From NCBI RefSeq assembly GCF_008973485.1, contig NZ_CP031223.1, positions 3,100,001 to 3,164,000 on the forward strand: a DNA stretch of 64,000 nucleotides. Reading direction: 5' to 3'. The notes under the pieces are model-generated. The model was not told where the DNA came from. It did not search any database and saw only the letters and a list, made by a program, of their open reading frames with translations. The position numbers were made by a program, and so were the translations under genes. Shown here one piece after another: positions 16,438-53,299 of the stretch. The DNA comes from Psychrobacillus glaciei (GTDB lineage Bacteria; Bacillota; Bacilli; Bacillales_A; Planococcaceae). Position 1 is the stretch's first letter, and each line of letters starts with the position of its first letter.

Positions 16438-16456
16438 ACAATAAATTATTTTAAAT

Positions 16457-17648: not shown

Positions 17649-17716
17649 ATTATTTAATTCTTTCAGGTACTATGAACACTTCGCAGGACGATAATCCATA
17701 TACTTTCTTATCTTTT

Positions 17717-17753: not shown

Positions 17754-17756
17754 GTA

Positions 17757-18263
17757 TTATTTAGTTCGCTCTAACATTTCTTCTTTCGTATAGATCACCC
17801 GCATGGGGTTTCCACCGACAAAGCAACCTTCAGGAACATCACGGTGTATGAGCGTTGCTGCAGAAACTATGGCATCATTACCGATTGTTACTCCGGGAAG
17901 AATAGTAGTATTGGCACCGATTAACACTCGATCTCCTATAATTACATCTCCAATTCGATACTCGTCAATTAAATACTCATGTGCCAATATCGTCGTATTA
18001 TAACCAATTATCGAGTTGTTACCGACTTTAATACGCTCTGGGAACATTACATCTACCATTACCATTAACGCAAAAGATGTCTCTTCTCCAATTTTCATTT
18101 TCAAAAATACTCGGTAGAAAAAGTTCTTCCAACTTAAAAATGGTGAGTATCTCGCTGCTTGTATGAATATAAAATTCTTTATTACTTTCCAAAAAGGAAC
18201 TGTATCATATACATGCCAAAGGGAATTTGCCCCACTAACAGGATACCTCTCTGTTTTTCTCAT
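17757..18263 (-). CDS. yvoF: hexapeptide-repeat acyltransferase YvoF
   Basis: 168 aa. A left-handed beta-helix acetyltransferase of the LacA/NodL/WbbJ kind, with hexapeptide repeats from about residue 85 on (IGDVIIGDRVLIGANTTI and LPGVTIGNDAIVSA). The end has VGGNPMRVIY, typical of this superfamily. It would acetylate a sugar or similar acceptor in the cytosol; the acceptor is unknown. Its start overlaps the ppaX stop by 4 bp, so it is co-translated with ppaX at the end of the hprK operon, as in B. subtilis. Confidence 0.88.
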   Translation of the reverse strand: MRKTERYPVSGANSLWHVYDTVPFWKVIKNFIFIQAARYSPFLSWKNFFYRVFLKMKIGEETSFALMVMVDVMFPERIKVGNNSIIGYNTTILAHEYLIDEYRIGDVIIGDRVLIGANTTILPGVTIGNDAIVSAATLIHRDVPEGCFVGGNPMRVIYTKEEMLERTK

Positions 18264-19851: not shown

Positions 19852-19868
19852 AGCTTGCCCTACTTTCT

Positions 19869-20678
19869 TTACTTATCTAGATAACGCACTGCAGGTTTGA
19901 TCGTTAATCTTCTATATATAAATAGAATAATTGAAATTGCAATCGCAAGTAACGAAACTACTTGAGCGGTTCTTAATTCCCCTACTAAATACAGGCTATC
20001 TGTACGCATTCCTTCTATAAAGAATCGCCCTACAGAGTACCATGTTAAATAGAACAAGAACATCTCGCCTCTAAGTAAGTTTACTTTACGAAGTAAAATT
20101 AATATAATGACTCCAATAATATTCCATACTGATTCATATAAAAATGTTGGATGATAATATATTCCTTCAATATGCATTTGCTCGATAATCCAATTCGGTA
20201 GCTTCAAGTTTTCTAAAAAAGTTCTAGTCACTTCTCCACCATGTGCCTCTTGGTTCATGAAGTTCCCCCAACGCCCCACTGCTTGGCCAATTAACAAACT
20301 AGGCGCCATTATATCCATTAGTTTCCAAAAAGAAGTACCTCTTTTTCGGGTAAAGAAATAAGCCGTTAAGAAAGATGCAATTAATGCACCATGTATTGCA
20401 ATTCCACCATGCCATATTTGAATAATCTTTTCTGGATTCTGGCTATAGAAATCCCATTTAAATATAACGTAATATATTCTTGCACCTATAATTGCTAAAG
20501 GCACTCCCCAAATAAGTAAATCTGTTAAATATTCTTGATGGAACCCTCGCTTTACCATTTCCCGTTGTGCCACTGTAAAAGCTAATATAATGCCACATGC
20601 AATAATTATTCCATACCATCTAACTTCTATTGGTCCAAGCGAAAAAGCCACTGGATTAATTGCTTGTAATAAATTCAT
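19869..20678 (-). CDS. lgt: prolipoprotein diacylglyceryl transferase
   Basis: 269 aa polytopic membrane enzyme that transfers diacylglycerol from phosphatidylglycerol to the lipobox cysteine of prelipoproteins. The signature GRWGNFMNQEAHGG (about residues 138-151) carries the conserved Arg, Asn and Glu; the N-terminal VRWYGI and WHGGIAIHGAL are also typical. It would process the lipoproteins at 43.1 and 43.8 kb in this window. It lies 26 bp after hprK. Confidence 0.97.
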   Translation of the reverse strand: MNLLQAINPVAFSLGPIEVRWYGIIIACGIILAFTVAQREMVKRGFHQEYLTDLLIWGVPLAIIGARIYYVIFKWDFYSQNPEKIIQIWHGGIAIHGALIASFLTAYFFTRKRGTSFWKLMDIMAPSLLIGQAVGRWGNFMNQEAHGGEVTRTFLENLKLPNWIIEQMHIEGIYYHPTFLYESVWNIIGVIILILLRKVNLLRGEMFLFYLTWYSVGRFFIEGMRTDSLYLVGELRTAQVVSLLAIAISIILFIYRRLTIKPAVRYLDK

Positions 20679-40439: not shown

Positions 40440-41991
40440 ACGAATTATGTTATTGCATATTATTTTATTTCTAGCTACTATGTTTTTTAGTGAAACTCCT
40501 TGGTATTTTTTAATGCTCACAGTCGCTCAGCTTTTATTTGTACCAATCACTTTACAATTAATCTTGAAACAAGAGAATCGAGTGTATTATTATTTTGCAA
40601 TACCAGCTTTTACGTCTGTTTTTATTTTACAAATAACGACGGATACTAAGTTGGACCTATTATTAGCAGCCATTTATCTTCTTTTTACATTAGTCATTGC
40701 TTTATATGGATTCGGTCGTTTTATCCGCCGAGGCTTTGCGCATTTAGAAGAATTTTCGATTGATGCTGGGATGATTTATTTATTCATCGGGGGTATTTGG
40801 TTCTTTGCTTCTGTTGCCGAAATTGATACTGATTTTTCACCTATTCTTACATGGTTAACTGGAATTCACTTTCATTATTCAGCTTTCTTATTGCCCATTT
40901 TCGTAGGATTTCTTGGTCGTTTATATAAGACAACTGCATATAAAATATTCTGTACCATCATTTTAATTTCTCCGATCGTTGTAGCAATAAGTATAACCTT
41001 CTTCCCTTGGCTTGAAGTTGTTTCAGTGCTTCTTTATATTATTGGGATTTATGGACTAATTGTATTAACTATTAAAACCACATTTGCAAGTGTACGACAA
41101 AAAGTGTTCGTGCTTATATCATTCGGTTCGTTAGGGGTTACCATTATTTTCTCTTTACTGTATGCAACTAGAATTTTTAGTATAGGCATTGATTTCATGT
41201 TACGCTTTCATGGATTTTTTAATTGTATTTTATTCGCACTATGTGGAATTATCGGTTGGTCTATTTTCACACCTCCCTCTAAAGGACAAGGTTGTCTTTT
41301 TCCAGTTAGCAAAATTAGAGGAAAGCTCGTTATTGGTGAGCAAATTTTGACTGATCATCTGGAGAAGAGAACTTACAAAGGGCTTGTCGATGATATGAAT
41401 ATGTATATGGAGAAGGAAACCATATCTTCTACCATCATCGATTTTTACGAAAATACAACTCAATACAGATTATTCTCTGAGGTGCATTGGCACACTTGGT
41501 TTAAGCCATTTGCAGCTATTTATAAACTTATTAGTAGGAGAATACAGCAACTCAACCTACCTTATTCTAATAAACAGATGGAAATGACTGGCGACATAGT
41601 TGCCGTAGAGGATGGCCGCTCCGATACGAGAGCATGGGTACGAAAAATCAACAAAGAAGTCATCTTTGTCGCTCTCTACTCATCCCATCGAGGGAATAAT
41701 AAAACGTATATGAATATTGCTTTGCCACTACCTTGGTCATCAATGATTGGAATACTGGAATTACATCAGCAAGGAGAAAAGCTTCTCTTAACAAGTAAAG
41801 GAACTAGCGATTCCGATGCGGGGATTTATTTAGCTACTAAGAAATACGTATTTAAATTACCACTACAAGAGCAATTTTTACTTGAGGAAATAAAAGAAGG
41901 AGAGCTTCGTGCAAAACATCAAATGCGGATATTCTCTATACCTTTTTTAACGATTAATTACAGGATTCATAGAAAAGAAATCTTTAATTAA
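40429..41991 (+). CDS. yndJ: YndJ-like multi-pass membrane protein
   Basis: 520 aa. The first ~300 residues contain eight or nine hydrophobic helices; the last ~210 residues form a soluble domain rich in beta strands. Family: YndJ of Bacillus, function unknown. The ATG at 40429 overlaps the yndH stop; an in-frame TTG at 40402 is also possible. A terminator follows about 90 bp after the stop. It is the last chromosomal-type gene before the cassette-like region. Confidence 0.8.
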   Translation: MTFKRIMLLHIILFLATMFFSETPWYFLMLTVAQLLFVPITLQLILKQENRVYYYFAIPAFTSVFILQITTDTKLDLLLAAIYLLFTLVIALYGFGRFIRRGFAHLEEFSIDAGMIYLFIGGIWFFASVAEIDTDFSPILTWLTGIHFHYSAFLLPIFVGFLGRLYKTTAYKIFCTIILISPIVVAISITFFPWLEVVSVLLYIIGIYGLIVLTIKTTFASVRQKVFVLISFGSLGVTIIFSLLYATRIFSIGIDFMLRFHGFFNCILFALCGIIGWSIFTPPSKGQGCLFPVSKIRGKLVIGEQILTDHLEKRTYKGLVDDMNMYMEKETISSTIIDFYENTTQYRLFSEVHWHTWFKPFAAIYKLISRRIQQLNLPYSNKQMEMTGDIVAVEDGRSDTRAWVRKINKEVIFVALYSSHRGNNKTYMNIALPLPWSSMIGILELHQQGEKLLLTSKGTSDSDAGIYLATKKYVFKLPLQEQFLLEEIKEGELRAKHQMRIFSIPFLTINYRIHRKEIFN

Positions 41992-42013
41992 ATGAAGGAG
42001 CTTTCCGTCAAGT

Positions 42014-42031
42014 AACGGGTTCCGTTACCTA
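42014..42031. repeat. left member of an 18-bp inverted repeat bracketing the accessory region
   Basis: TAACGGGTTCCGTTACCT here is the exact reverse complement of 52791-52808. Each copy is also internally palindromic (GTAACGG/CCGTTAC). Confidence 0.85.
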
Positions 42032-42083
42032 TTGCAAAACTAGAATTTACACACATAATTGTAAGTAAAAATGTAATATTAAG

Positions 42084-42110
42084 AGCACCGTAAATTACGG
42101 TGCTTTTGTT
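42084..42110 (+). terminator. terminator of yndGHJ
   Basis: AGCACCGTAA / TTACGGTGCT forms a hairpin followed by TTTTGTTT, in the direction of yndJ. Confidence 0.85.
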
Positions 42111-42113
42111 TAC

Positions 42114-42150
42114 AAAAAAATAGCCCAGTTCAATTTCGAACTGGGCTATT
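42114..42150 (-). terminator. terminator at the left end of the cassette array
   Basis: On the minus strand AATAGCCCAGTTC pairs with GAACTGGGCTATT and is followed by a T-run (A-run at 42114-42120 on the plus strand). Confidence 0.85.
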
Positions 42151-42173
42151 GCCTGTGTTTAAATGCCAAACGC

Positions 42174-42200
42174 TTGTTCAACTAAAGCACCAATTAGCCA
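42174..42200. repeat. cassette repeat site, short form (site 1)
   Basis: TTGTTCAACTAAAGCACC directly joined to AATTAG. It fuses the CAACTAAA arm to the GCACC-NG-TTAG arm of the full site. The stop codon of the 34-aa ORF lies in its TTAG. Confidence 0.65.
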
Positions 42201-42298
42201 TCCATGCAGCACAAAATCAGGGCTGCACCACAGAGAATGAAAATGATCAGGAAGTGCCAATACTGATACTGACCTTTATCCAGTCTACCGTAATCCAT
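42194..42298 (-). CDS. tiny membrane peptide (34 aa)
   Basis: Reading from ATG at 42298, the peptide starts MDYGRLDKGQYQYWHF and continues with a hydrophobic helix (LIIFILCGAALILCC) ending in MDG. One membrane pass is predicted. GAGGAG lies about 15 nt upstream, rather far. Its stop codon lies within a cassette repeat, exactly as for the genes ending at 43064 and 45292, which supports it being real. Family not recognised. Confidence 0.5.
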   Translation of the reverse strand: MDYGRLDKGQYQYWHFLIIFILCGAALILCCMDG

Positions 42299-42444
42299 AG
42301 ACTTATTTACGCTCTCCTCTTTTTTTAACAATTAAGCAGAGGTCTTCTTAAGTATTGTCATTTTTCTTTTGTTTAAGAAACTAATTTTCATGGTAGTTTA
42401 AGTACATTATTTAACATTCTTACTTGAATCCGATATTATACGCT

Positions 42445-42537
42445 CTATAAAAAATAATTAAAGAGAAAAGGAACTAATAAAACTAAAATAGAACCTATAC
42501 CAAAAACAGATACCACTTTTATCATGTCTTTTTTCAA
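42445..42537 (-). CDS. tiny membrane peptide (30 aa)
   Basis: TTG start (42535-42537) 7 nt after AGGGGG. The peptide has a basic start (MKKDMIKVV) then a hydrophobic stretch up to the end (GSILVLLVPFLF). Single membrane helix, no known family. Same strand as its neighbours. Confidence 0.5.
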   Translation of the reverse strand: MKKDMIKVVSVFGIGSILVLLVPFLFNYFL

Positions 42538-42642
42538 GATAATCCCCCTAAGCGTTTTTTATAATTGTTAATACGTTCCAAAACGAAAAAGATTCCAAAA
42601 TAATCCACCTAAAATAGATTAGACTTATTCAAGTAAGGGGTG

Positions 42643-42715
42643 CTTAGTTCAATAACAATAATGGCTTTTTACTGACAGACCTATTCTGCTAAAGCACCCG
42701 TTAGTGCAATAAGGA
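42643..42715. repeat. cassette repeat site 2
   Basis: Has CTTAGTTCAATAA, an inner hairpin with TGCTAAAGCACCCG, then TTAGTGCAATAAGG. A variant inner hairpin contains CTGACAG, as in the site at 47208-47298. Confidence 0.7.
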
Positions 42716-42732
42716 CTTTTAAAACTCTAATA

Positions 42733-42945
42733 TTATTTAGAACTTCTTATGACTCTAAAAGACAAACTCGACAAAATAAACGAAACAACAATTAGTATTG
42801 GAGTTACAACAAAAATTGTTAATAGGTCAGTTGTAACATTCCAAGGCACATAAGCATTCCACATCAAACCCATAAATTTCCACAAAGTACAAAAAATAAA
42901 TATTACGAATAAAAAATAAATAATATTCGCTAATACTTGATTCAT
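42733..42945 (-). CDS. small hypothetical membrane protein
   Basis: 70 aa from the ATG at 42945, six nt after a run of G. Two membrane helices (NIIYFLFVIFIFCTLWKF and LLTIFVVTPILIVVSFIL). No recognised family. It lies between cassette sites 2 and 3 on the minus strand, one gene per interval. Confidence 0.65.
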   Translation of the reverse strand: MNQVLANIIYFLFVIFIFCTLWKFMGLMWNAYVPWNVTTDLLTIFVVTPILIVVSFILSSLSFRVIRSSK

Positions 42946-42997
42946 TTTATATACCCCCCCCAAAGCATTGAAATGTTATTTGTTACAAAATACAATA

Positions 42998-43078
42998 TCC
43001 TTGTTCAACTAACCTGACCCGTTAGTAAAAAAGGCTCTACTCCTTATTGAAGTAAAGCACCCGTTAGTCCAAGAAGGT
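42998..43078. repeat. cassette repeat site 3
   Basis: On the minus strand: ACTAACGGGT, the hairpin GCTTTACTTC...GGAGTAGAGC, a T-run, then ACTAACGGGTCAGGTTAGTT. The stop codon of the 165-aa lipoprotein gene is the TAA of its first ACTAAC. Confidence 0.85.
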
Positions 43079-43561
43079 TTGTTCTTTGTTAGGTTTAATG
43101 TATAAATCAATTCTTTCTTTAGCACTTTCACTCTTACCCCGCCATTTAACAATCATGTAAATATTATTTATTTCGTTTAATGTAATAGGTGTTCCATCTT
43201 CGTTCAGATATGTCCCACATTCAATTGCCCCAGTATATTCCTCTTCAATATCCTTTCCAGTACTACTTACTCCACCTGTATGTACTACTAGGTCTTTATC
43301 GTTAATAACTACATGGGTTTCGAAATGAAAAAAATCTACATTAGATTTATTTCCATTTTTCACATGTAAAGTTCCATTACCCGCTTTAAAACTTTCTGGT
43401 GTTATCACAACTTCGTATCCAGTTAAATTCCAAGTCTGACTTTCTCCCATTAATGATAAATAGTAATTACTAACTGACTTCTCATTACCATTACATCCCG
43501 AAAGTAAAACGACAAGTACTAAAAAAAGCATATAAAAAATTCTTTTACTTTTCAGTATCAT
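43064..43561 (-). CDS. putative lipoprotein
   Basis: 165 aa. A signal peptide with basic start and lipobox LLSGC (Cys about residue 23) predicts a lipid-anchored extracellular protein processed by Lgt and LspA. The mature part is beta-rich (GYEVVITPESFKAGNGTLHV) with no known domain. The stop codon TAA is inside the cassette repeat. ATG preceded by GGGGG. Confidence 0.75.
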   Translation of the reverse strand: MILKSKRIFYMLFLVLVVLLSGCNGNEKSVSNYYLSLMGESQTWNLTGYEVVITPESFKAGNGTLHVKNGNKSNVDFFHFETHVVINDKDLVVHTGGVSSTGKDIEEEYTGAIECGTYLNEDGTPITLNEINNIYMIVKWRGKSESAKERIDLYIKPNKEQTFLD

Positions 43562-43620
43562 AACGACCCCCTTTTTCCGCTATAATTGTATCATTTTAAC
43601 TTTTATAAAGGTGATTTCAT

Positions 43621-43695
43621 CTTACACTAAACTGCTTCGTTAGTAAAAAGGGCTCTACTCCTATTTAAGTAAAGCACCCGTTAGTTTAAGTGTAG
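43621..43695. repeat. cassette repeat site 4
   Basis: Plus strand order: CACTAAACTGCTTCGTTAGT, AAAAAG, GGCTCTACTCC...AAGTAAAGC, ACCCGTTAGTTTAAG. Same architecture as site 3. Confidence 0.85.
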
Positions 43696-43757
43696 ACTTT
43701 CACAATCTTATTCCTCTACAAAAGAGAGCCATAAAAAATACCCTTAAGAGAGCCCTA

Positions 43758-44192
43758 TTAGTTATTAATTGTTTTAATTCGGAAAGCATAAATTCCATCA
43801 CCTTCATCCCAACTTGCGTGAATGACAAAAATGAATTCGCCTTCTTCCTCTGGTAATGTAAATTCATGGGTATTAAATCTTTCAAGATCCACGCCATTGT
43901 TTTCCCAAATACCAATTTCGATTGAAGAAGGTTTGTAGTCAAAGTTAATTAAAATTGTTTTCCCGCTTGGAACTTCATTCACCTTCACCTTTTCTACAAG
44001 TTCAGCAGGGGATGCCGAATCAGCAATAACAACTTTTCCATTTTTCGTCCAAGAATATGTCCCCATTGCATAAGAAATTTCTTGATTATCAACTGTTATA
44101 GTCGGATGTGGTGGTTTCAAATCTTTATTTTCATTTGATTGGCATCCAGTTATAAAAAATATAAAAACAAATATCCATAGGCATCTTTTCAT
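43758..44192 (-). CDS. putative lipoprotein
   Basis: 144 aa with a signal peptide and lipobox FITGC (Cys about residue 17). The mature region is short and acidic, with a C-terminal beta-rich part (EGEFIFVIHASWDEGDGIYAFRIKT). It is unrelated in sequence to the 165-aa lipoprotein next to it, as far as can be seen. AGGGAGG precedes the ATG. It lies between site 4 and the site carrying the first intron. Confidence 0.75.
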   Translation of the reverse strand: MKRCLWIFVFIFFITGCQSNENKDLKPPHPTITVDNQEISYAMGTYSWTKNGKVVIADSASPAELVEKVKVNEVPSGKTILINFDYKPSSIEIGIWENNGVDLERFNTHEFTLPEEEGEFIFVIHASWDEGDGIYAFRIKTINN

Positions 44193-44308
44193 TCTAATCC
44201 TCCCTCTATAAATGTGAATGTATATGGTTTGTTCATTCTATATTTTTCCTTTTTACTTAAATGATGAGCTTCGGCTTTAAAATATTTGATTGTTATTTGT
44301 TCTAATTC

Positions 44309-44323
44309 CTTCTTCAACTAAAC
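44309..44323. repeat. cassette repeat arm at the 3' side of intron copy 1
   Basis: CTTCTTCAACTAAAC, the right arm of the small hairpin; its partner arm TGCTGCGTTAGTTTAAG is at 45178-45194 on the other side of the intron. Confidence 0.8.
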
Positions 44324-44327
44324 GTTA

Positions 44328-45177
44328 GTAATAGGTAAACGTTTGAAGTTATCTCCGGCTTTTCCCCTACTCCGCACGGAACGTGCCAGTTTCCAAGCAT
44401 TCCGCGTTCCATCTAACGATGGTATTATTAATTATAAGTTTCAAGTTACTCTTCATCGAAGAGCTTGCACTGTGGCATCATTCTTATATGAAATGATGTT
44501 CCCACGTTCTTACCAGACCGGTGCAATGCACAGTTGAAAAATAATTATTACCTATCGCTAGACTTGGGGCTGTTCCTCCACCTCCATTACAGAGGTTTCA
44601 CTGGTCGTACCCCTACCCTCATAAGGACCAATGCATTTCGCCATTTAGCTTATAGCAACCGTTTCGGGTGACAGCCCTTGATCCAACGTTCCTTATTTTC
44701 CAAGTACCTTATAACCTAGCTATCTTTTTCTAAACTTAGGTGCTTCCTGTAAGCCTATGAGCTGGATACCGCCATTGTTCGGTATAACGTGTTTCAGAGC
44801 AGCAATTTTTACTCCACGTCACTCACCCCATCGTTGGATGGTACACAAGTTTCCTTATGCTCTAACTTTAGACCCGTACATTCGGAAGTTCGTCTGTTCT
44901 TTTCCGTAAGAAAATTCTCACCATATTTAGTTTTTCAGCCATCCGACATATCCATTGGCATACCTTTTCCGTGAGGAGTGGCTTCAGCCTTTGTTCTGCC
45001 GACTTTACCTGAGCTTCAGACCCCATAATCTGTCTATTATGACGCATGCAGGAGTATCAATGGGATAGTTTCAAAATACGTGGTTTTATCATTCCTATCC
45101 TCGGTTATAAAGTTAGGATTTCCGAAGAAATCCCTTGTTTTTTCACACATTAGTGCTTATAACAAAACTTGTCGCGC
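44328..45177 (-). mobile_element. ORF-less group II intron, copy 1
   Basis: About 850 bp, apparently identical to 51623-52472. On the minus strand it begins GCGCGAC (a variant of GTGYG) and has near its 3' end a domain V-like hairpin: GGAACG...GGAAAC...CGTTCC with a GAAA loop, followed by GTGCGGAG. The end reads TTTACCTATTAC, with an A eight bases from the end suited to be the branch point. Domains before it contain CACCCGAAACGG and other intron-like motifs. No reverse transcriptase ORF is present. It interrupts the small hairpin of a cassette site. The exact 3' boundary may be up to 4 bp off. Confidence 0.75.
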
Positions 45178-45248
45178 TGCTGCGTTAGTTTAAGTGTAAC
45201 ATTTCACATTGTATCGCCGAAATCTTCTTGATGTTTAGGACGTAAAAA

Positions 45249-45272
45249 TAGACCATCGAAAAATGATGGTCT
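45249..45272 (-). terminator. terminator after the 129-aa membrane protein gene
   Basis: AGACCATC-ATTTTTC-GATGGTCT on the minus strand, followed by ATTTTTA, about 20 bp past the stop. Confidence 0.75.
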
Positions 45273-45300
45273 TGTTTAACTAAAGCACCCGTTAGTCAAT
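45271..45300. repeat. cassette repeat site, short form (site 5)
   Basis: CTTGTTTAACTAAAGCACCC-GTTAGTCAAT. The stop codon of the adjacent gene is the TAA inside its TTAG. Confidence 0.75.
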
Positions 45301-45681
45301 TTTCGGCTTTTTAACTTTTAATATCGCCTTTAAGGATAAGATAGATATTCTTAAAAATCCTCTTACTAATAATTGTCCTATTAACTGAACACCTGCCACA
45401 AGTATTACAGCAACATCTCTACTAACTGGCTTAAACCAACTGCCATCATTTGGGATAAAATACATAGCCAAAAATATGGATAGTAACCCTGCAATAATAT
45501 TAACCCAGATAACGTACTTAATCTTTATGTAAACAGACAAAGAACCTATTATAACAACAAACAATACAAGACCTAAAAATAAGAAAGAAGCTTCTTCCCC
45601 CTTAATATGTTGCCCATATTCATAAAAATGAAAGAAGAAAGCTACAGGCACTAAAGAAAGAATCAACCACAAAATCTTCAT
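45292..45681 (-). CDS. hypothetical membrane protein
   Basis: 129 aa from the ATG at 45681 behind AAAGGAGG. Three or four hydrophobic segments and a basic C-terminus (LKAILKVKKPKID). Family not recognised. The stop codon lies within a cassette repeat. Confidence 0.7.
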   Translation of the reverse strand: MKILWLILSLVPVAFFFHFYEYGQHIKGEEASFLFLGLVLFVVIIGSLSVYIKIKYVIWVNIIAGLLSIFLAMYFIPNDGSWFKPVSRDVAVILVAGVQLIGQLLVRGFLRISILSLKAILKVKKPKID

Positions 45682-45761
45682 AATAACCTCCTTTATTTTC
45701 ATAATACTTGCCGATGATAAAGAAAAAACTAATTTAAAACTTCGACGTAAATCAATTTATT

Positions 45762-45850
45762 CCTTCTTCAACTAAACTGCGGCGTTAGTTCAATAAGAAA
45801 AAAGGCTTTACTCCATCTTGAAGTAAAGCACCCGTTGGTTTAAGAAGAAT
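45762..45850. repeat. cassette repeat site 6 (full form)
   Basis: CTTCTTCAACTAAACTGC-GGCGTTAGTTCAATAAG, A-run, GGCTTTACTCC...GAAGTAAAGC, ACCCGTTGGTTTAAG. It shows all three AACTAA/TTAGTT arms and both hairpins. The stop of the 73-aa gene lies in the final TTTAAG. Confidence 0.9.
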
Positions 45851-46061
45851 TTTTTACTTCTTTCTTCTGTTTCCTACGGTAAAAAAAACGCCATATATAA
45901 AAGATAGTATATGTAATTACTAACACTGACAAAGGAATATACGGATAGTTTTGTCCACCATAAAATATAAGGATGCTTCCTATAATAAACGCTGGTACCG
46001 CCAAATAAAACCACATTCTTACTTCCTTGTTTTTAAAACTTAATTCAAATCGTTCACTCAT
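45840..46061 (-). CDS. small hypothetical membrane protein
   Basis: 73 aa from the ATG at 46061 (8 nt after GGGGG). Two membrane helices separated by the short loop YGGQNYPYIP and a very basic C-terminus (YRRKQKKEVKNSS). No known family. It ends at the edge of cassette site 6. Confidence 0.65.
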   Translation of the reverse strand: MSERFELSFKNKEVRMWFYLAVPAFIIGSILIFYGGQNYPYIPLSVLVITYTIFYIWRFFYRRKQKKEVKNSS

Positions 46062-46166
46062 ATACCCTACCCCCTTTATAACTTTCTTCAATTAAACTTC
46101 CCTTTAAATGTTTGAAACGAATTGTTGAGGTTCTGATTTCCCCCCATTATTAAACAAAATACATTA

Positions 46167-46205
46167 CCTTCTTCAACTAAACTGCTTCGTTAGTTCAATA
46201 AAAAG
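46167..46205. repeat. cassette repeat site 7 (small hairpin only)
   Basis: CTTCTTCAACTAAACTGC-TTCGTTAGTTCAATAA, without the terminator-type half. Confidence 0.8.
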
Positions 46206-46319
46206 ACTTTTAATAAATATTCCCAAATTCATTACCTTGAAATTCACTTGTAAACCCTTTTTCAGTTGAACATGCAAAGGAGAACTTTTAAACAGCTCAA
46301 TGAACTTCAATTATATTCC

Positions 46320-47189
46320 CTATTTGAATAGTTCATAGTTGCTCAAATATATTGCTCCATTTCTTCTTGTTACTTGAAAATTTAATTCGTCTTTAACCTT
46401 AAGCACAGAACCAGTAATCTCTAAATTTTTTCTTTTTATAAAGGATATACCATATCCATTATTATCGGGATACCCATAAATATAACAGACTACTTTTCCA
46501 TCATTTAAAAAAACAATTTGATTCATTGAATCACTTACTGTATCCGCTATATTATCCCATTTATATCCAACTTCTTCATATATCGTATCTTTAGATGTAT
46601 ATGGATCAAATGAATATATAACATCCCATTCAAAGGGGGTAACATCTAATAAATTTATTGTATCAACGGATTCTTCAATTGATAACACTTCTTTTTTTAA
46701 TAACTCTTCATTTACATCCCACAAATCTTTTTTTAATGGATTCAATAATATAGCAATAAATAGGATGCAAAGAACAATAATCACTCTAGTTTTTGTAAAT
46801 TTCAAATCAAATCTACCTCTTGCCTCTTTTATCCTAAGAAGCTCATCTATACACCAAAAGAAACTGGAAGATAATATAGGAATAAGTAAAAAGAACTGTA
46901 AGTCAGGAAGTATAAAATCCCTTCCCAATTCTGAAAACAAAGCTGGAATCAAAACTACTAAAGTGGCAAGGAATAAATGAATGAACAATGCCAAGATCCC
47001 TCTATACTTCCCTTTTAATTTTTTAGTTAGATAATCAGAGAAAACAGATACTGGTACTCCATAAAACAAAATAATAGGGAATAAGTAAACACCTAAAATG
47101 ATGATAAACCATGATTGGTAAAATAAAAAAAAAATTATCATAAACAACGCATAAGTCACTACCGCAGAAATAAGCTTTCTTTTAATCAT
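46320..47189 (-). CDS. hypothetical membrane protein with extracellular C-terminal domain
   Basis: 289 aa. Five or so membrane helices in the first 160 residues, then a soluble beta-rich domain (about 165-289) with FEWDVIYSFDPYTSKDTIYEEVGYKW and FLNDGKVVCYIYGYP. No recognised family, although similar cassette-borne proteins are common in Bacillus accessory regions. ATG preceded by GGGGTG. Confidence 0.7.
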   Translation of the reverse strand: MIKRKLISAVVTYALFMIIFFLFYQSWFIIILGVYLFPIILFYGVPVSVFSDYLTKKLKGKYRGILALFIHLFLATLVVLIPALFSELGRDFILPDLQFFLLIPILSSSFFWCIDELLRIKEARGRFDLKFTKTRVIIVLCILFIAILLNPLKKDLWDVNEELLKKEVLSIEESVDTINLLDVTPFEWDVIYSFDPYTSKDTIYEEVGYKWDNIADTVSDSMNQIVFLNDGKVVCYIYGYPDNNGYGISFIKRKNLEITGSVLKVKDELNFQVTRRNGAIYLSNYELFK

Positions 47190-47207
47190 TTGAACACCCC
47201 AATCATT

Positions 47208-47300
47208 TCTTCTTCAACTAAACTGCGACTTTAGTTGAATAATAAGGGCTGTTTCCTGACAGCGCTTTTTTGCTAAAGCACACCGTTAGTTGAAGATGTT
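47208..47300. repeat. cassette repeat site 8 (full form, variant inner hairpin)
   Basis: CTTCTTCAACTAAACTGC-GACTTTAGTTGAATAATAAG, inner hairpin GGGCTGTTTCCTGACAGC, then TGCTAAAGCACACCGTTAGTTGAAGATG. The outer arms CTTCAACTAA/TTAGTTGAAG pair perfectly. Confidence 0.85.
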
Positions 47301-47350
47301 ATTTTTTATTTTTCATTAAATTACTTCCATTTACATCTGTTGAAAAACCA

Positions 47351-47390
47351 ACTTTACTCCTTCTGGAAGTAAAGCACTCGTTAGAGTTCG
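47351..47390. repeat. cassette repeat site 9 (terminator half only)
   Basis: CTTTACTCC-TTCT-GGAAGTAAAG, CACTCGTTAGAG. It lies 75 bp past the csaA stop. Confidence 0.7.
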
Positions 47391-47462
47391 TTGCCGACAT
47401 TTTTGCAAGATAGCACCGTTACTATTTTACTGAAAACAAGTAGGATGTTCCTTTTATCATGC

Positions 47463-47792
47463 CTATGCTATTGGTGTTCCATTTTTAACAGATTCATCTG
47501 GCTTTAAAAGTACCACGTCACCTTCCTCTGGTACACCTCCAATTACCAATACCTCCGATTTAAAACCAGCAATACGTCTTGGAGGGAAATTTACTACTGC
47601 AACCACCTGATGTCCAATAAGTTGTTCTGGTGTATATCTTTTTGTAATTTGTGCAGAAGAATGTTTAATACCAATTTCTCCAAAATCAATTTCTAATTTT
47701 ATTGCAGGTTTTCGTGCTTCTGGAAAGGGTTCTGCGTTAATAACAGTACCAATACGGATGTCCAATTTCAAAAAGTCCTCAATTGTTACCAC
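47463..47792 (-). CDS. csaA: tRNA-binding-domain chaperone CsaA
   Basis: 109 aa. The single OB-fold tRNA-binding domain is typical of Csa[61 protein letters not shown]. CsaA binds tRNA and acts as an export-related chaperone as a dimer in Bacillus. GTG start 8 nt after GGAGG. It lies between cassette sites 9 and 10, so a widely conserved gene sits in the array as cargo. Confidence 0.92.
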
Positions 47793-47899
47793 AAATTTAG
47801 CCTCCAGTCATTTACAATTAGTACCATCTTAACAAATTGAATCAAAAATTTAAATCATCAAATAATTCAGCTCGATTTTTGAACACAGTTAATCATCGC

Positions 47900-47967
47900 T
47901 CTTCTACTAAACTGCCGCTTTAGACTATACTCCTTCTTGAAGTAAAGCACCCGTTCGTATTATAAGG
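47900..47967. repeat. cassette repeat site 10 (internally shortened)
   Basis: CTTCTACTAAACTGC-CGCTTTAG, then ACTCC-TTCTT-GAAGTAAAGC, ACCCGTTCGTATTATAAGG. The spacer between the two halves is shortened. Confidence 0.75.
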
Positions 47968-47999
47968 TTAGCCAGATATTTCTGGTTGACCTTTTTTTA
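47965..47999 (+). terminator. terminator-like hairpin upstream of the IS110 element
   Basis: GGTTAGCCAGA-TATT-TCTGGTTGACC followed by seven T. It would shield the transposase gene from upstream transcription. Confidence 0.65.
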
Positions 48000-48002
48000 T
48001 AT

Positions 48003-48182
48003 CGATATATGATTGCGGTAGCCGGGGTAGAACGTAAGCACCCGTGGGGCTATTGATCCCGTCAACTAAACAGTTCGCCCCCTACTTGTAGAAACATGAT
48101 TGAGGCTGGTTGGGACTCTGATCTCGTATAACAAGCGAAGCTATGATACTACATGGAGGAATAGGGGTTACCGGTTAATTGT
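48003..48182 (+). ncRNA. putative IS110 bridge-RNA region
   Basis: About 180 bp of GC-richer, hairpin-prone sequence directly upstream of the transposase, where IS110-group elements encode the bridge RNA that specifies donor and target DNA. One clear hairpin has GGGGC and GCCCC arms around a 26-nt loop (about 48051-48086). This loop contains TCAACTAAAC; AAGCACCCGT lies just before the hairpin (48037-48046). Both 10-mers occur in the cassette repeats. The RNA ends are not known. Confidence 0.5.
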
Positions 48183-48200
48183 ATGACAAGGAGGAAAATA

Positions 48201-49439
48201 ATGATGAATCCAGTAATTGGTCTGGATGTGGCAAAAGGCGAAAGTCAGGTTCAAGCATTCTTAGATAAAAAACAACCGTATAAAAAGAGCTTTAAAGTAG
48301 CACACACACTGGAAGGGCTGACAATTCTTTTAGAGTTTATGAGAGAAATAGAAGTGGCTTCTGGAGAAAGGCCCCCCATTGTTTTGGAATCCACTGGCCA
48401 CTATCATACACCAGTTGTCCAATTTTTCGAAGACAGAGGTTATTTAATAATCATGGTTAATCCACTCGTTTCGTATCGAGCAAAAAGTTCCAGTTTACGT
48501 AAAGTAAAGACAGATATCATAGATGCTCGTCATCTCTGCGAGATGTTTTATAAAGAGGACTTAGAGCCTTATAAACAGCGAGGGATCCAGCTCTTAAATT
48601 TACGTCATCTTACAAGACAACATGAAAATATTACAGGTATGTATGTACAAACTAAACTACAATTCCAATCCGTTTTAGATCAAGTATTTCCTGAATACTG
48701 TGGGGTCTTTGGAGATCTTTATTCAGATGTCTCCTTACTGACCTTACAAGCATTTCCTACTTCTGAGGAAGTGATGGCAACACGTGAAGAAACAGTCGCC
48801 AAAAAAATAAAGGAATTCTGTAAAAGTCGTTCTCAAAAATGGGCAAACAGTCAGTCAGAAAAGTTAAAAGCTGCCGCAGATCGCAACCCATTCCAGAAAA
48901 CCTTATACAATAGTCTTATCTTAAGCATAAATATGTATATTAAGATGCTTCTAGAATATAAAAAACATCTATCAGATCTGGAAAGAGAGATAGATGCTTT
49001 AGCGAAAAGCATGGAAGAATATAAGATTCTCCAATCCATCCCCGGTATTGGTGAGAAAATCGCAGCAACGATTATTTCGGAGATTGGGGAGATTGATCGG
49101 TTTAATCATCCTAAAAAGTTAGTTGCCTTTGCAGGAATTGATCCAAGTGTTTTTGAATCTGGTACATTCAAAGGTACTTTGAATCGGATTACCAAAAGAG
49201 GTTCTAGTAGACTACGACATGCCTTATATATGGCCGTTAAAAGTGCCATTCGTGATAGTCGCAAGAAGAAAACGACAGATGAACTCATTCCTCGAAATAA
49301 GAGGTTAAGGGAGTTTTATGATAAGAAACGTGAAGAAGGAAAGCCCTTTAAAGTAGCTGTAATAGCATGTGCAAATAAGCTTTTACATTGGATTTATGCA
49401 CTTTTAAAAAACAATTCATTTTTCCAATATCTTACCTAG
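48201..49439 (+). mobile_element. IS110-family insertion element, transposase gene
   Basis: 412 aa with ATG at 48201 after AAGGAGG. The N-terminal RuvC-like DEDD domain shows VIGLDVAKGES, VLESTGHYHTP and KVKTDIIDARHL. The C-terminal Transposase_20 domain has LQSIPGIGEKIAATIISEIG, FAGIDPSVFESG and RGSSRLRHAL, with the likely catalytic Ser. Such enzymes recombine DNA under guidance of a bridge RNA. No terminal inverted repeats are expected or seen; the element probably spans about 48.0-49.56 kb. The frame is intact, so it may be active. It is the only large plus-strand gene in the array. Confidence 0.92.
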
Positions 49440-49563
49440 TATTAAAATATAACTAAAAAGCCTAAACCTTTCCAAATACAGAAAATTGAAAGGTTATTTG
49501 GCATGCACAATTTTAGTATAGCATGAACTAATTTGTTTTTTATTAATAAATATTGACAAACTA

Positions 49564-49585
49564 TTGGCTGGTTTAGTTGAATAAT
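49564..49585. repeat. cassette repeat half-site at the right edge of the IS region
   Basis: GGCTGGTTTAGTTGAATAATGG, equivalent to the right arm of the small hairpin of site 8, without a left partner next to it. Confidence 0.6.
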
Positions 49586-49724
49586 GGAGTATTAGAAATT
49601 AATTAATATCACCTACATATTAATCCAAATTCTATTTTCAATCTTTCACATTTTTAAATATTGAAACTTTTCATTTTTTGCAACGTATCTAATAACAACC
49701 TATTACCTGATTGGAAGTGAAGTA

Positions 49725-49805
49725 ATGAGCTTTGGTACCTGGATTGCTATCGCAGTAGCACTTTTTGCAGCTATATTCTTCTCAAGAAAAAAGAAAAGTA
49801 AATAG
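49725..49805 (+). CDS. tiny membrane peptide with basic tail (26 aa)
   Basis: ATG at 49725; the peptide is MSFGTWIAIAVALFAAIFF followed by SRKKKSK. One membrane helix and a strongly basic end, resembling in form the toxins of type I toxin-antitoxin loci, though no antisense RNA could be identified. The ribosome binding site is weak (GGAAGTG). A good terminator follows 8 bp after the stop. It is on the plus strand, against the direction of the cassette genes. Confidence 0.5.
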   Translation: MSFGTWIAIAVALFAAIFFSRKKKSK

Positions 49806-49811
49806 CCTTCC

Positions 49812-49850
49812 CGGAGATTAATTCAACTTGATTAATCTCTTTTCTTTCAT
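49812..49850 (+). terminator. terminator after the 26-aa ORF
   Basis: GAGATTAAT-TCAACTTG-ATTAATCTC followed by TTTTCTTTC. Confidence 0.8.
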
Positions 49851-49882
49851 ATTTTGGTTCAAAAGCTACATAAAAACTCCCC

Positions 49883-49972
49883 TTCTCTTATTGAACTAAC
49901 CTGCGGCGTTAATTCAATAAGAAAAAAGGATTTACCCCTTCTTGAAGTAAAGCACCCGTTAGTTTAAGTGAA
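49883..49972. repeat. cassette repeat site 11 (full form)
   Basis: CTTATTGAACTAACCTGC-GGCGTTAATTCAATAAG, A-run, GGATTTACCCC...GAAGTAAAGC, ACCCGTTAGTTTAAG. Nearly the same as site 6. Confidence 0.9.
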
Positions 49973-50004
49973 ATGTTTCACAAATTTTTTTCATGGATAT
50001 ACAT

Positions 50005-51468
50005 TTAAAATTTTTTGCGTTTCTTCGGAGTCTTAATTTCTTCCCATGAATAATTTGGTACTGTGGCAACCCATATCGTATCTCCCATCATATCCACATC
50101 CGAAATAATAGTATCGTTCGCTTCAAACACTTTTTCAGATTTGCTTTCATATTCCGTACTGATGGAATAGATAGCTTCACCTCTATTGCTATATCCCAAT
50201 AACTTCTCTCCTTTTTTAATGAATTGAACTATCTCTTCATCCACGTTGATTTTTCTCCAATTTACCTCTTGAAGATTTCGCGTCCAAATTCCACTCTCTG
50301 TGGTTATGAATAGCCTATTACTAATCACTTTCATATTCCACGGTACATCCTTACTATTCGGCATGGTGATTTCGTTCCATCCATCATTTATCTTTTGTAA
50401 AAGCTTTCTTTCTTCTGTGAGTCCTAACAAATCTCCATTATCCGATATTTGAATCACATAAAATGGGTTAGGAACAATAGCTTTTTCCCAACTTTTCCCT
50501 TGATTACTTGTATAATAAATAGTTCCATTTGATAGCACAGCTATATGATTGTTGATAGAATAATCGACGTTCTCAATCGGGTGGTCTAATGAAAGAATTT
50601 TCCTTCCTTTACTTTTGGATGTAATACCCACCCATATTTCGTTTTCCGTAACTGCATATAATTCATCATTCCTATCAAACCAAGCGTGTGTCACATAATT
50701 ATCAGCTCGTAGTGCGGTCCATTTTTTTCCACCGTTCTCGCTCCATTCAATAAAAGGTTGATTACTTGTACTAAATTGGGTTGGCTTTTTGTCTCCCCAT
50801 ACGACTAATTTTTTGTTTCCAGCGACAAACCCTGTAATCGCCATCCCTTTTTTAGATAGCTTTTCGGTATCAATACGTTTGGATATTAATCCTCCACCGT
50901 ATGGTAATTTATGAATGGCACTGACTATATCACCGTTTCTGGCATTGAATGAAATTCGAGTAAATCGTTTATCTCGATCATTTCCAATCACTGTTAAAAT
51001 TGGTGTACCCTCGATATTATCCAATGTAAAATGATATCCTGTTGCCCAACCTTTTCCTTGTTTTAGACCATATTTATCCTTTGCAAGTTGGAGAACATCC
51101 GAGCTATCCAATTTGATCTCATCGTATTGAATTGTAGGAACCTGAGATTGCTTGAACGATTCAAACACGGTAATTTTCTTTTCTGAGATACCAATTAGTA
51201 AATGTTCATCTGTACCTAAAGCCATAAATTGCATAAACCAATTAAAGCGTTTCCCTGTTTCTCCTCTCGAGCCACCCATCGTTTCATCCACAGTATTTAC
51301 ACTGGTAAGTGTTGCGTTTGCATTCCATTCTTTCGCTCGCTGAAATCCAATATCAATCGCTTCTTTAAGCGTAAGTTCCCCCTCTGAAGCGATTGTTTCA
51401 CGACCAATCAAATTTACAAAAACTAAAAAAATAACTAACAAACAAGAGACTTTTTTTATGAAACTCAA
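50005..51468 (-). CDS. secreted protein with Asp-box beta-propeller
   Basis: 487 aa from a TTG start. A signal peptide (KKVSCLLVIFLVFVNLIG) is followed by a region resembling PepSY-type folds (about 30-200). From about 220 onward there are repeated strands with Asp-box/BNR motifs (WSENGGKKWTAL, YTSNQGKSWEKA), the sign of a sialidase-like or YCF48-like beta-propeller. It is probably extracellular; the ligand is unknown. It is by far the largest cassette-type gene and is followed by cassette site 11. Confidence 0.7.
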   Translation of the reverse strand: MSFIKKVSCLLVIFLVFVNLIGRETIASEGELTLKEAIDIGFQRAKEWNANATLTSVNTVDETMGGSRGETGKRFNWFMQFMALGTDEHLLIGISEKKITVFESFKQSQVPTIQYDEIKLDSSDVLQLAKDKYGLKQGKGWATGYHFTLDNIEGTPILTVIGNDRDKRFTRISFNARNGDIVSAIHKLPYGGGLISKRIDTEKLSKKGMAITGFVAGNKKLVVWGDKKPTQFSTSNQPFIEWSENGGKKWTALRADNYVTHAWFDRNDELYAVTENEIWVGITSKSKGRKILSLDHPIENVDYSINNHIAVLSNGTIYYTSNQGKSWEKAIVPNPFYVIQISDNGDLLGLTEERKLLQKINDGWNEITMPNSKDVPWNMKVISNRLFITTESGIWTRNLQEVNWRKINVDEEIVQFIKKGEKLLGYSNRGEAIYSISTEYESKSEKVFEANDTIISDVDMMGDTIWVATVPNYSWEEIKTPKKRKKF

Positions 51469-51488
51469 AATACCACCATCCCATAACT

Positions 51489-51526
51489 AAATAAGCACAT
51501 TAATCACAGGATTAATGTGCTTATTT
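51489..51526. terminator. strong hairpin upstream of the propeller gene
   Basis: A perfect 17-bp stem AAATAAGCACATTAATC / GATTAATGTGCTTATTT with a four-base loop. It sits 20 bp upstream of the start of the minus-strand gene, so it may terminate transcription coming from the intron side. Confidence 0.6.
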
Positions 51527-51602
51527 AGGATGGAGTAAATACTTCGCTATATTCCCTCATAGATCCAATATAACAAACAAAATACTCCTTTTATCAGAGA
51601 AT

Positions 51603-51618
51603 CCTTCTTCAACTAAAC
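51603..51618. repeat. cassette repeat arm at the 3' side of intron copy 2
   Basis: CCTTCTTCAACTAAAC; the other arm TGCTGCGTTAGTTTAAG is at 52473-52489. Confidence 0.8.
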
Positions 51619-51622
51619 GTTA

Positions 51623-52472
51623 GTAATAGGTAAACGTTTGAAGTTATCTCCGGCTTTTCCCCTACTCCGCACGGAACGTGCCAGTTTCCAAGCATTCCGC
51701 GTTCCATCTAACGATGGTATTATTAATTATAAGTTTCAAGTTACTCTTCATCGAAGAGCTTGCACTGTGGCATCATTCTTATATGAAATGATGTTCCCAC
51801 GTTCTTACCAGACCGGTGCAATGCACAGTTGAAAAATAATTATTACCTATCGCTAGACTTGGGGCTGTTCCTCCACCTCCATTACAGAGGTTTCACTGGT
51901 CGTACCCCTACCCTCATAAGGACCAATGCATTTCGCCATTTAGCTTATAGCAACCGTTTCGGGTGACAGCCCTTGATCCAACGTTCCTTATTTTCCAAGT
52001 ACCTTATAACCTAGCTATCTTTTTCTAAACTTAGGTGCTTCCTGTAAGCCTATGAGCTGGATACCGCCATTGTTCGGTATAACGTGTTTCAGAGCAGCAA
52101 TTTTTACTCCACGTCACTCACCCCATCGTTGGATGGTACACAAGTTTCCTTATGCTCTAACTTTAGACCCGTACATTCGGAAGTTCGTCTGTTCTTTTCC
52201 GTAAGAAAATTCTCACCATATTTAGTTTTTCAGCCATCCGACATATCCATTGGCATACCTTTTCCGTGAGGAGTGGCTTCAGCCTTTGTTCTGCCGACTT
52301 TACCTGAGCTTCAGACCCCATAATCTGTCTATTATGACGCATGCAGGAGTATCAATGGGATAGTTTCAAAATACGTGGTTTTATCATTCCTATCCTCGGT
52401 TATAAAGTTAGGATTTCCGAAGAAATCCCTTGTTTTTTCACACATTAGTGCTTATAACAAAACTTGTCGCGC
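51623..52472 (-). mobile_element. ORF-less group II intron, copy 2
   Basis: Same length and, as far as can be read, the same sequence as 44328-45177, in the same orientation and at the same position of a cassette site. Flanking sequences beyond the site differ (GTTTAAGTTC here, GTTTAAGTGT at copy 1), so this is a second insertion or a recombination product rather than a large tandem duplication. Without its own reverse transcriptase it would need a maturase in trans. Confidence 0.75.
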
Positions 52473-52494
52473 TGCTGCGTTAGTTTAAGTTCAA

Positions 52495-52790
52495 TGTTTC
52501 ACATTCTATATATTTATTTGAACATAAGTATTCAGAATACCTTTTAAAATCAGGTTAATAAGTATTGTTTTTCAGTATATCCATGGCATTATGCTAGTTA
52601 ATTTGAAGACGATTTGTAGGTAAAAATGCAAACGTACACCAGCCATTGTACTCTTTCCAATTGTGTTGCAATTTGTTATGCTTTTATTAAGTATATTTGG
52701 TATGTATTCCTTTTATATCAACAAAAATTGACCAACAAAATGATATACAAATTGATGGTCATTTAAGTTACATTTTTAATGTTTGCGACA
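52495..52790. other. AT-rich intergenic stretch without recognised gene
   Basis: Between intron copy 2 and the right boundary repeat. I see no ORF with a ribosome binding site. A weak hairpin (TTGACCA...TGATGGTCA near 52727-52763) is the only structure. Confidence 0.5.
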
Positions 52791-52808
52791 GGTAACGGAA
52801 CCCGTTAT
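52791..52808. repeat. right member of the 18-bp bracketing inverted repeat
   Basis: AGGTAACGGAACCCGTTA, the exact reverse complement of 42014-42031, followed by TCCGTTAGGGGACC, which again resembles the cassette arm GTTAG. Confidence 0.85.
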
Positions 52809-52843
52809 CCGTTAGGGGACCTCCTTTTCACTTGCTATTCACT

Positions 52844-53299
52844 CTACATTTTCTTATATTTTTCATTAAATGCATTTAACCAATCCATATCAATTGGACC
52901 GTTAACTACTTTATAATAATCCCCATTATAAATATGAACATAATTTTCTTCCATCGTAACCATAGTAGGATTAGATTTATTATGATGGATTGTGAATCCA
53001 AATCTCTTCCCTTTGTAATTAGTATCAAAGAAATTCTCTTTTTGCTTCTTCGCTTGATACTGGCTTAAAAAATTTAGAAGTTCATCTACTGGCTCTATAT
53101 CCTCGGTTCCCCACCCATCACTGCTGTCGTCTGGAATAGGATAGCCTCTATTAGTAAATGAAAAACCTATAAAATCACTTTTTTTCAATCGGATTAAATC
53201 CTCTAAATCTCGTTCACGATAATCATTCCAATACTTGAATGAAAAAAATGCAATAACTACAATGAAAAAAATCAAATATATTTTATTTTTCTTTTTCAT
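52844..53299 (-). CDS. hypothetical membrane-anchored protein
   Basis: 151 aa: a basic start, one N-terminal hydrophobic helix (IYLIFFIVVIAFFSF) and an extracellular part of about 125 residues with aromatic-rich C-terminus. No lipobox Cys and no known domain. AGGGAAG precedes the ATG. It lies just outside the bracketing repeat, 12 bp downstream of the methyltransferase gene. Confidence 0.65.
   Translation of the reverse strand: MKKKNKIYLIFFIVVIAFFSFKYWNDYRERDLEDLIRLKKSDFIGFSFTNRGYPIPDDSSDGWGTEDIEPVDELLNFLSQYQAKKQKENFFDTNYKGKRFGFTIHHNKSNPTMVTMEENYVHIYNGDYYKVVNGPIDMDWLNAFNEKYKKM

Follow-up and report, generated by a model that had tools for sequence, protein, structure and literature searches.

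The stretch analysed here, called the window, comprises 64,000 nucleotides of Psychrobacillus glaciei (contig NZ_CP031223.1, positions 3,100,001 to 3,164,000) and carries, at 42.0-52.8 kb, an array of small genes separated by copies of a repeated site, which we describe together with the recombinase that probably serves such arrays. A position-weight scan placed 17 cores of two kinds, A and B, on the + strand between 42.19 and 49.96 kb, including weak ones (14-20 bits) at 42191, 47281, 47378 and 47915, and two further A cores are split by introns (44307-44323 with 45182-45198, and 51606-51618 with 52477-52492). The sole core match on the - strand of the array (49567) is the end of an IS110 element. 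On the + strand a complete site consists of an A core, a hairpin that would act as a terminator on the minus strand, and a B core; as the genes of the window are on the minus strand, the order met at the end of a gene is therefore B, terminator, A. That strand holds eight open reading frames (ORFs) of at least 70 aa, plus a possible one of 34 aa, and the cargo comprises small membrane proteins and lipoprotein-like ones for which no Pfam family reached the cut-off, csaA and a 487-aa possible propeller protein. Terminator-like hairpins numbered 21 in 41900-53000 against a mean of 6.6 in shuffled sequences, and hairpins predicted on the minus strand at four window sites had z-scores of -1.7 to -3.9 against shuffles. 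An earlier note on this DNA had proposed an integron-like array with one small gene per repeat site and a common direction, and the position-weight scan and the ORFs bear this out. The anatomy that it gave for 45762-45850 and 49883-49972, a terminator-type hairpin and then a small hairpin on the minus strand, was confirmed, and so was csaA (PF01588), while its propeller protein has a sub-threshold Sortilin/Vps10 match only. It had also seen no integrase, which is true of the window: no recombinase was found there, and copies lie elsewhere in the same genome. The features are collected in Table 1.

Table 1. Parts of the cassette array in the window
Feature	Position	Strand	Remarks
26-bp inverted repeat, left copy	42013..42038	+	bounds array
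B core, degenerate	42181..42201	+	array's left edge; position-weight score 18 bits
Possible 34-aa reading frame	42194..42298	-	ends in B core; probably not a conserved protein
B core	42688..42708	+	
Cassette gene, 70-aa small membrane protein	42733..42945	-	no Pfam match (Pfam search read 42733-42942)
Complete site	A core 43007..43027; hairpin 43034-43058; B core 43051-43071	+	
Cassette gene, 165-aa lipoprotein-like	43064..43561	-	no Pfam match
Complete site	43625..43688	+	A core 43625-43645; hairpin 43652-43675; B core 43668-43688
Cassette gene, 144-aa lipoprotein-like	43758..44192	-	no Pfam match
A core split by ORF-less group II intron (about 44324-45181)	44307..45198	-	RF02004, RF00029; flanks are A core halves
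B core	45279..45299	+	
Cassette gene, 129-aa membrane protein	45292..45681	-	no Pfam match
Complete site	45762..45850	+	A core 45770-45790; terminator hairpin 45805-45829 (minus strand); B core 45822-45842
Cassette gene, 73-aa membrane protein	45840..46061	-	sub-threshold UbiA match
A core	46175..46195	+	
Cassette gene, 289-aa membrane protein	46320..47189	-	no Pfam match
A core, then weaker cores	47216..47236; about 47281; 47378	+	47281 B-like by eye, scored A; 47378 B
Cassette gene csaA, tRNA-binding domain protein, 109 aa	47463..47792	-	PF01588, E 3e-19
A core (weak) and B core	47905..47961	+	A 47905-47925; B 47941-47961; IS110 element begins right after B
IS110-family element after B core	47969..49584	+	transposase 48201-49439; PF01548, PF02371; 99.8% copy in L005
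Complete site	49883..49972	+	A core 49894-49914; B core 49946-49966
Cassette gene, 487 aa, possible beta-propeller	50005..51468	-	sub-threshold Sortilin/Vps10 match
A core split by second copy of group II intron (about 51619-52476)	51606..52492	-	
26-bp inverted repeat, right copy	52782..52807	+	

The consensus of 468 A cores is CTTnTTnAACTAAmCTGCnnCGTTAGTTnAAnAAG, in which two mirror-image arms, each about 14 bp long, are separated by a spacer of some 7-8 bp. The B core is AACTAAAGCACCCGTTAGTT; its left arm is more variable, and left arm and spacer differ from those of A. We scanned 1.56 Mb (the window and loci L001-L086) with both matrices at a threshold of 10 and found 996 A and 707 B matches against a single match each in reversed sequence, and this near-absence of matches excludes a chance origin of the sites. 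In the same loci, 1197 sites were on the commoner strand of their locus and 47 on the other, and the two kinds mostly alternate, successive sites forming 370 AB, 377 BA, 215 AA and 153 BB pairs. From A to B the median distance was 61 bp, with 261 of 370 distances below 120 bp, and from B to A it was 636 bp; A and B mostly flank a short terminator hairpin, and the B-to-A intervals mostly contain one small gene. The overlapping loci L013/L065 and L027/L058 were kept in the site, distance and neighbour counts, in which some sites are counted twice. The longest ORF (at least 50 aa) ran opposite to A in 64 of 75 segments of 250-2000 bp from the window's own genome, 11 more being without an ORF, and in 413 of 520 segments from relatives (41 more without), as against 162 versus 148 for the two directions in random stretches of window 1-37000 (90 without). 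Array cargo includes GNATs and many small genes of unknown function, and defence-system models searched against 57 cassette proteins, a set without transposases, reverse transcriptases, recombinases and many very short ORFs, gave one weak match.

The genome of the window holds 108 A-type matches (at most two mismatches) against none in the control. The 100 listed ones cluster at about 0.59, 1.95-2.02, 2.31-2.34, 3.05, 3.14, 3.21-3.23, 3.49-3.50, 4.06 and 4.27 Mb, with a few outside these clusters and one on contig C2. On contig C1, where dnaA lies at 0.3 kb, 97 of the 99 listed matches follow one rule, - strand up to 2.02 Mb and + strand from 2.24 Mb on, and this switch makes the cassette genes co-directional with the replication fork. 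Similarly, 83 of 94 sites agree with fork direction in another genome (G015), its origin being assumed by synteny. Leading-strand gene bias is a feature of this bacterial group and may account for part of the site orientation. Moreover, duplicates within the genome match from core to core: L001 17206-17676 resembles L006 11963-12433 (95%), and the unit of the window's 487-aa gene (49888-51616) resembles L003 14204-15924 (84%), from A core to A core.

The evidence for exchange of units comes from comparison between species, not between strains of one species. The ends of blastn matches between loci fell within 150 bp of an A core in 691 of 3114 cases against 9.5% expected, mostly at -15 to +10; recombinase matches are part of this count and of the between-group count below. 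We then compared A cores sharing one flank (185 and 25 pairs; background from random sites of the same loci). Where the right flank was shared and the left was not, letters agreed from about position 21 rightwards and were at background at -1 and leftward, and pairs sharing the left flank showed the reverse. Spacer positions 6, 11 and 12 were near background for both sides, as expected if strands are cut at the spacer's two edges. Position 14 was raised for left-shared pairs, and in a reduced set, from which most recombinase flanks, though not all, had been removed by motif, position 12 stood at 0.76 versus 0.61. Linkage switches inside B too (40 right-only pairs; 386 left-only pairs, 262 of them flagged as recombinase ends; 6 pairs sharing both), and one gene was found behind differing terminators, the terminators swapping independently of the gene at B.

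Recurring flanks told the same from the side of the neighbours. Among families that include recombinase units, a new left neighbour at A cores was met in 26 of the 46 defined by a right flank, and a new right neighbour in 28 of the 50 defined by a left flank; for B cores the corresponding counts were 22 of 38 and 22 of 34. Control points 250-400 bp away gave 1-4 of 22-32 and 1-7 of 25-33 for A, and 0-6 of 15-28 and 0-4 of 15-28 for B. With longer flanks the changes were 25 of 36 and 25 of 37 at A, and 18 of 26 and 17 of 25 at B. In addition, among 148 matches between groups (at least 90% identity, at least 250 bp; 59 of 87 sources, the window's own genome taken apart from other Psychrobacillus), 48 had both ends close to a core (within 60 bp, query side) and 67 had one. 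These results support unit exchange with breakpoints inside the cores.

The same results bear on two other explanations. The earlier note had offered as its alternative a family of repeated terminators with no recombination role, whose neighbours would change by ordinary homologous recombination between repeats. The excess of hairpins in the linkers fits such a family, and recombination between repeats of about 90 bp is possible in principle; yet the breakpoints lie within short cores, the terminators change independently of the gene at B, and the sites are clustered, co-oriented and tied to one recombinase family, which makes this explanation most improbable. According to the other, A-recombinase-B is an insertion element and A-terminator-B its non-autonomous copies, similar to miniature inverted-repeat transposable elements and inserted beside genes that are moved only indirectly. 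The recombinase unit is indeed conserved from A to B while its flanks differ (25 A sites with 24 left neighbours, 29 B sites with 29 right neighbours), and the linkers show several terminator types that are exchanged. However, gene segments too change context as units, also across genomes and named genera, and the arrays are dense, most intervals holding a single small gene, so that we regard an insertion element as unlikely and prefer the exchange of cassettes.

The candidate enzyme was found among the 21 PF00589 matches of the window's genome, five of which lie inside A-site clusters: two, at 1.954 and 2.341 Mb, encode an intact protein of 279 aa and are 99% identical, and the remaining three are interrupted by stop codons. 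Its unit reads A core, about 77 bp, gene, terminator, B core. In the 63 loci used for this count (of 78 recombinase loci, fetched from 105 relatives found), an A core begins 95-99 bases upstream of the matched recombinase start in 26, and in 7, from a Peribacillus-like clade, an A core on the opposite strand lies 53-58 bases past the gene. In many loci the recombinase unit has sites on both sides, ends in B and lies within the array. The protein passes the XerA-type model (223 bits, cut-off 220) and falls short of the IntI model TIGR02249 (88 bits, cut-off 265), and its best-scoring solved relatives by sequence are the XerC-like 4a8e and XerD 1a0p. Five residues (R138, K162, H228, H254 and Y263) do not vary among 20 relatives and a sixth, R231, hardly does; we take all six to be of catalytic type. 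Fold comparison placed XerA first, with IntI4 below XerA and XerH and within about 3 Z units, so that fold alone cannot tell these families apart; about 35-39 residues of IntI4 have no counterpart in the recombinase (199-267 aligns to 238-306, the whole chains 1-279 to 1-314). Judged from sequence, the protein is a tyrosine recombinase of the XerA/XerC/D type.

Sites and recombinase go together across genomes. Relatives of the protein were fetched from Psychrobacillus, Sporosarcina, Lysinibacillus, Paenisporosarcina, Viridibacillus, Solibacillus, Neobacillus, Peribacillus, Domibacillus and others, and matches at E <= 1e-40 numbered 1052 cluster representatives. In a sample of 151 genomes of the family, which omits G004 and G013 and in which partial copies of at least 80% identity were scored as present, the median number of A sites was 54.5 in the 26 whose closest relative of the recombinase reached 80% identity, as against 0 in the remaining 125. 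Ten A sites or more were present in 22 of the 26 versus 8 of the 125 (Fisher p 4e-16), and 73 of the 151 had no A match. In a further possibility, the host XerC/XerD would act on the cores, as at Acinetobacter plasmid dif modules, with the array recombinase a passenger. The dif-like geometry of the A core (two arms, short spacer) and the eight genomes with at least 10 sites and no close recombinase would suit it, but site number tracks the array recombinase family, the symmetric arms suit one enzyme rather than two, and host Xer enzymes are presumably present in all genomes examined, including those 73 without an A match. We therefore consider a host enzyme quite improbable, and the array recombinase is probably the acting one.

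The distribution has some further aspects. Genomes whose recombinase relatives have 62-65% identity (L112-L116; G055, G080, G119, G129 and G151) show almost no A or B sites. Repeated 12-mers around the recombinases of this class, present in 3 of 9 loci, were discarded as candidate sites, being local tandem repeats in L112 and L113 and two hairpins in L114, without site-like spacing. Phage records held solely recombinase relatives under 60% identity (15 records). The 266-kb plasmid pSP10-266k of Sporosarcina psychrophila (L154), which also has mercury-resistance genes, carries at 12119-20592 a recombinase of 93% identity and 9 sites; the system is thus not limited to chromosomes.

The cores also receive mobile elements. 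The two group II introns of the window (44324-45181 and 51619-52476) are ORF-less and identical over the 858 bp of the query, and both score above the gathering threshold for RF00029 (domain V) and RF02004 (D1-D4). In the window's genome this ORF-less form is present as 8 full copies (858 bp, 97-100% identity), and other copies are interrupted by an insert; on contig C1 the family (L124-L149), both ORF-less and ORF-bearing, is inserted in recombination cores. An ORF of a longer copy encodes a reverse transcriptase/maturase (RVT_1 and GIIM), and the 8 near-identical ORF-less copies suggest that these are moved in trans by the maturase of longer copies. The 18 distinct 5' flanks listed all have CTAACGn at their end, and 15 of 16 3' flanks open with the remaining half of a core, A or B; the sixteenth is an 81% partial match. 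Regarding IS110 elements, one of 425 aa lies within the A spacer in 5 of 5 copies compared (at hand-chosen borders, fragments left out); the window's IS110 is a different one that follows a B core and whose copy in L005 lacks a core on its left side.

The resemblance to integrons, the textbook cassette platform, is evident. Like integrons and clusters of attC sites lacking integrases (CALINs), the arrays are long series of single small genes, mostly in one direction, with a site at each 3' end, and they share a diverse cargo of GNATs and many unknowns, unit-by-unit exchange of neighbours, and group II introns in the sites. We accordingly weighed a true integron or attC cluster served by IntI, in which A and B together would be a degenerate attC folding as single-stranded DNA. 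Besides these likenesses, the full site can be seen as two inverted simple sites whose core boxes match 6 of 7 letters by eye, and the A arms are complementary, so that a hairpin could form and activity as a single strand is a possibility. On the contrary, Watson-Crick covariation was absent from four arm pairs of 416 A cores (z -0.1, 1.5, 1.0 and 0.5), and 24 A-B letter pairs gave z from -3.9 to 2.6 with no pattern. A covariance model of the sites, discarded afterwards, had found no base pairs. The A cores are strongly conserved in sequence, whereas attC is conserved in fold and is described as without sequence conservation (PMC2727003). Two other papers describe an additional IntI domain around patch III, archaeal integrons being recognised by this IntI-specific domain, single-stranded attC folds and attI (PMC9668308), and a catalytic-domain insertion separating integron-like recombinases from the Xer subgroup, which is presented as mainly resolving chromosome dimers (PMC8138268). 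The array recombinase is instead XerA-like, misses the IntI cut-off by a wide margin and lacks the extra residues of IntI4, and differs from XerA and XerH in being accessory, sometimes multi-copy and seated in cassette arrays; in many loci its units stand inside the array with no fixed end, and no fixed attI-like platform was evident. Each unit here has two crossover sites with a terminator between them, in contrast to integrons. The introns are co-directional with the cassette genes, whereas group IIC-attC introns, which target attC, lie opposite to the cassettes (PMC7923331). An IntI-served integron is thus very improbable, and by the sequences compared the array system is not a canonical integron, in line with the wording "integron-like at best" of the earlier note. 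The nearest analogue with Xer-type sites is the dif module (pdif) of Acinetobacter plasmids, where genes likewise lie between Xer-type sites in differing contexts (PMC6449649, PMC7399989); the arrays described here, set apart from it by description, have many sites, nearly all on one strand per locus, are mostly chromosomal and have a recombinase family of their own.

The history of the window's locus shows how variable arrays can be. The genes to the left and right of the array are each present in 17 of 19 genomes of the genus, its own included. In one of them (G007) the two adjoin, with about 60 bp between, and relative to that genome the array is therefore extra DNA; sites at this locus were found in 2 of 13 relatives examined (G011 and G016). 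A 20-kb array of Psychrobacillus sp. NEAU-3TGS (G013) was compared with G004, which carries the P. lasiicapitis contig of L022 (matching coordinates): among the matches listed, with 40 of 201 candidates scored, only about 1 kb matches at 90% or more over 200 bp, and the rest either matches at 73-87% or is not among them. The same two genomes are 94% identical at the window locus and 98-99% in the array L067/L068, which is colinear over 20 kb, so that arrays appear stable in one place and largely changed in another.

Several points count against the exchange of cassettes by a dedicated enzyme. One is that colinearity, together with the sole large indel of the pair (299 bp), which removes a gene start beside a core, not a clean unit. 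Of the recurring families, about two fifths have an unchanged neighbour at the core, the AA and BB pairs mean that alternation of A and B is not strict, and the support comes from between-species comparison alone, with recombination deduced from it. Moreover, the AlphaFold model of the recombinase is middling (predicted local distance difference test 70, predicted template modelling score 0.50), 8 of the 151 genomes lack a close recombinase and yet hold 10 A sites or more, and 16 genomes with distant relatives only hold 0-9 A sites, for which reason the claim linking recombinase and sites is restricted to the close clade.

Taking both sides together, the window very likely holds one array of an integron-like cassette-shuffling system of Bacillales with a dedicated recombinase and double-stranded, dif-like sites, which soil-dwelling and cold-loving relatives of Bacillus appear to possess. 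In this scheme the 279-aa single-chain recombinase would exchange DNA at two short inverted-repeat cores, presumably as duplexes; a cassette gene would typically be closed by B, terminator and A, and a crossover in the spacer between A and A (or B and B) would gain, lose or swap single units. The difference between their spacers suggests that A recombines with A and B with B. The recombinase gene itself stands in a unit of the linker type, in the order A, recombinase, terminator, B within the close clade, and so could travel with the cassettes and serve in trans arrays that are without it, such as that of the window. For the earlier note this means that units of gene and site do exchange neighbours, with breakpoints inside the cores, as seen here between species, while the two kinds of crossover site, the introns and the IS110 transposase gene had escaped it. 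The genome-wide search for the site that it had suggested gave mostly clusters with some single matches elsewhere, a tyrosine recombinase was indeed found near other arrays, and the link with gene content is seen in the empty locus of G007 and in the 20-kb array of G013, mostly without a match of at least 90% in G004 among the matches listed.

A bolder and more tentative reading, which may well not hold, is that cassette capture arose here independently of integrons, through a stand-alone XerA-like recombinase and two mutually incompatible duplex sites alternating along the arrays, as a natural counterpart of recombinase-mediated cassette exchange. The modules, each exchangeable by itself, would then be terminators, genes and the recombinase, and a gene between unlike sites would be protected from simple excision, while a pair of crossovers, A x A and B x B, could still swap it. 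Our search of open-licence PubMed Central literature, in the portions of papers it covered, found no cassette-shuffling system of this kind in Bacillales. A large system in that order with an output like that of integrons, on a different recombinase branch and apparently on duplex sites, would show that cassette arrays had more than one origin or arose along a different path from a shared Xer ancestor, and it would account for some of the accessory genes of Psychrobacillus, Sporosarcina, Lysinibacillus and their relatives. It also opens the question of whether single-strand folding, the IntI domain and attI are needed for cassette capture or are particular to integrons. Integron cassettes are usually described as expressed by read-through from a common promoter, and terminators borne by the sites would set cassette expression apart from this.

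Some minor features of the window were also noted. The 26-bp inverted repeat at the array's borders is partly palindromic, and its 17-bp part occurs at only two places in the genome (at most two mismatches). As these are the two array borders, we rejected the repeats as transposon ends; the palindromic pattern was seen in 3 of 155 loci, two of which overlap the window region. The 34-aa frame was likewise rejected as a peptide cassette, since it is not conserved in 27 stretches. The stretch 42194-42298 and 26 similar ones recur after some B cores and end like the frame (...FMDG or CMDG stop), and this recurrent stretch is perhaps a non-coding element or a worn gene end. Finally, self-matches within the first 4 kb of the window revealed repeats at 2082-3455 with an offset of about 103 bp.

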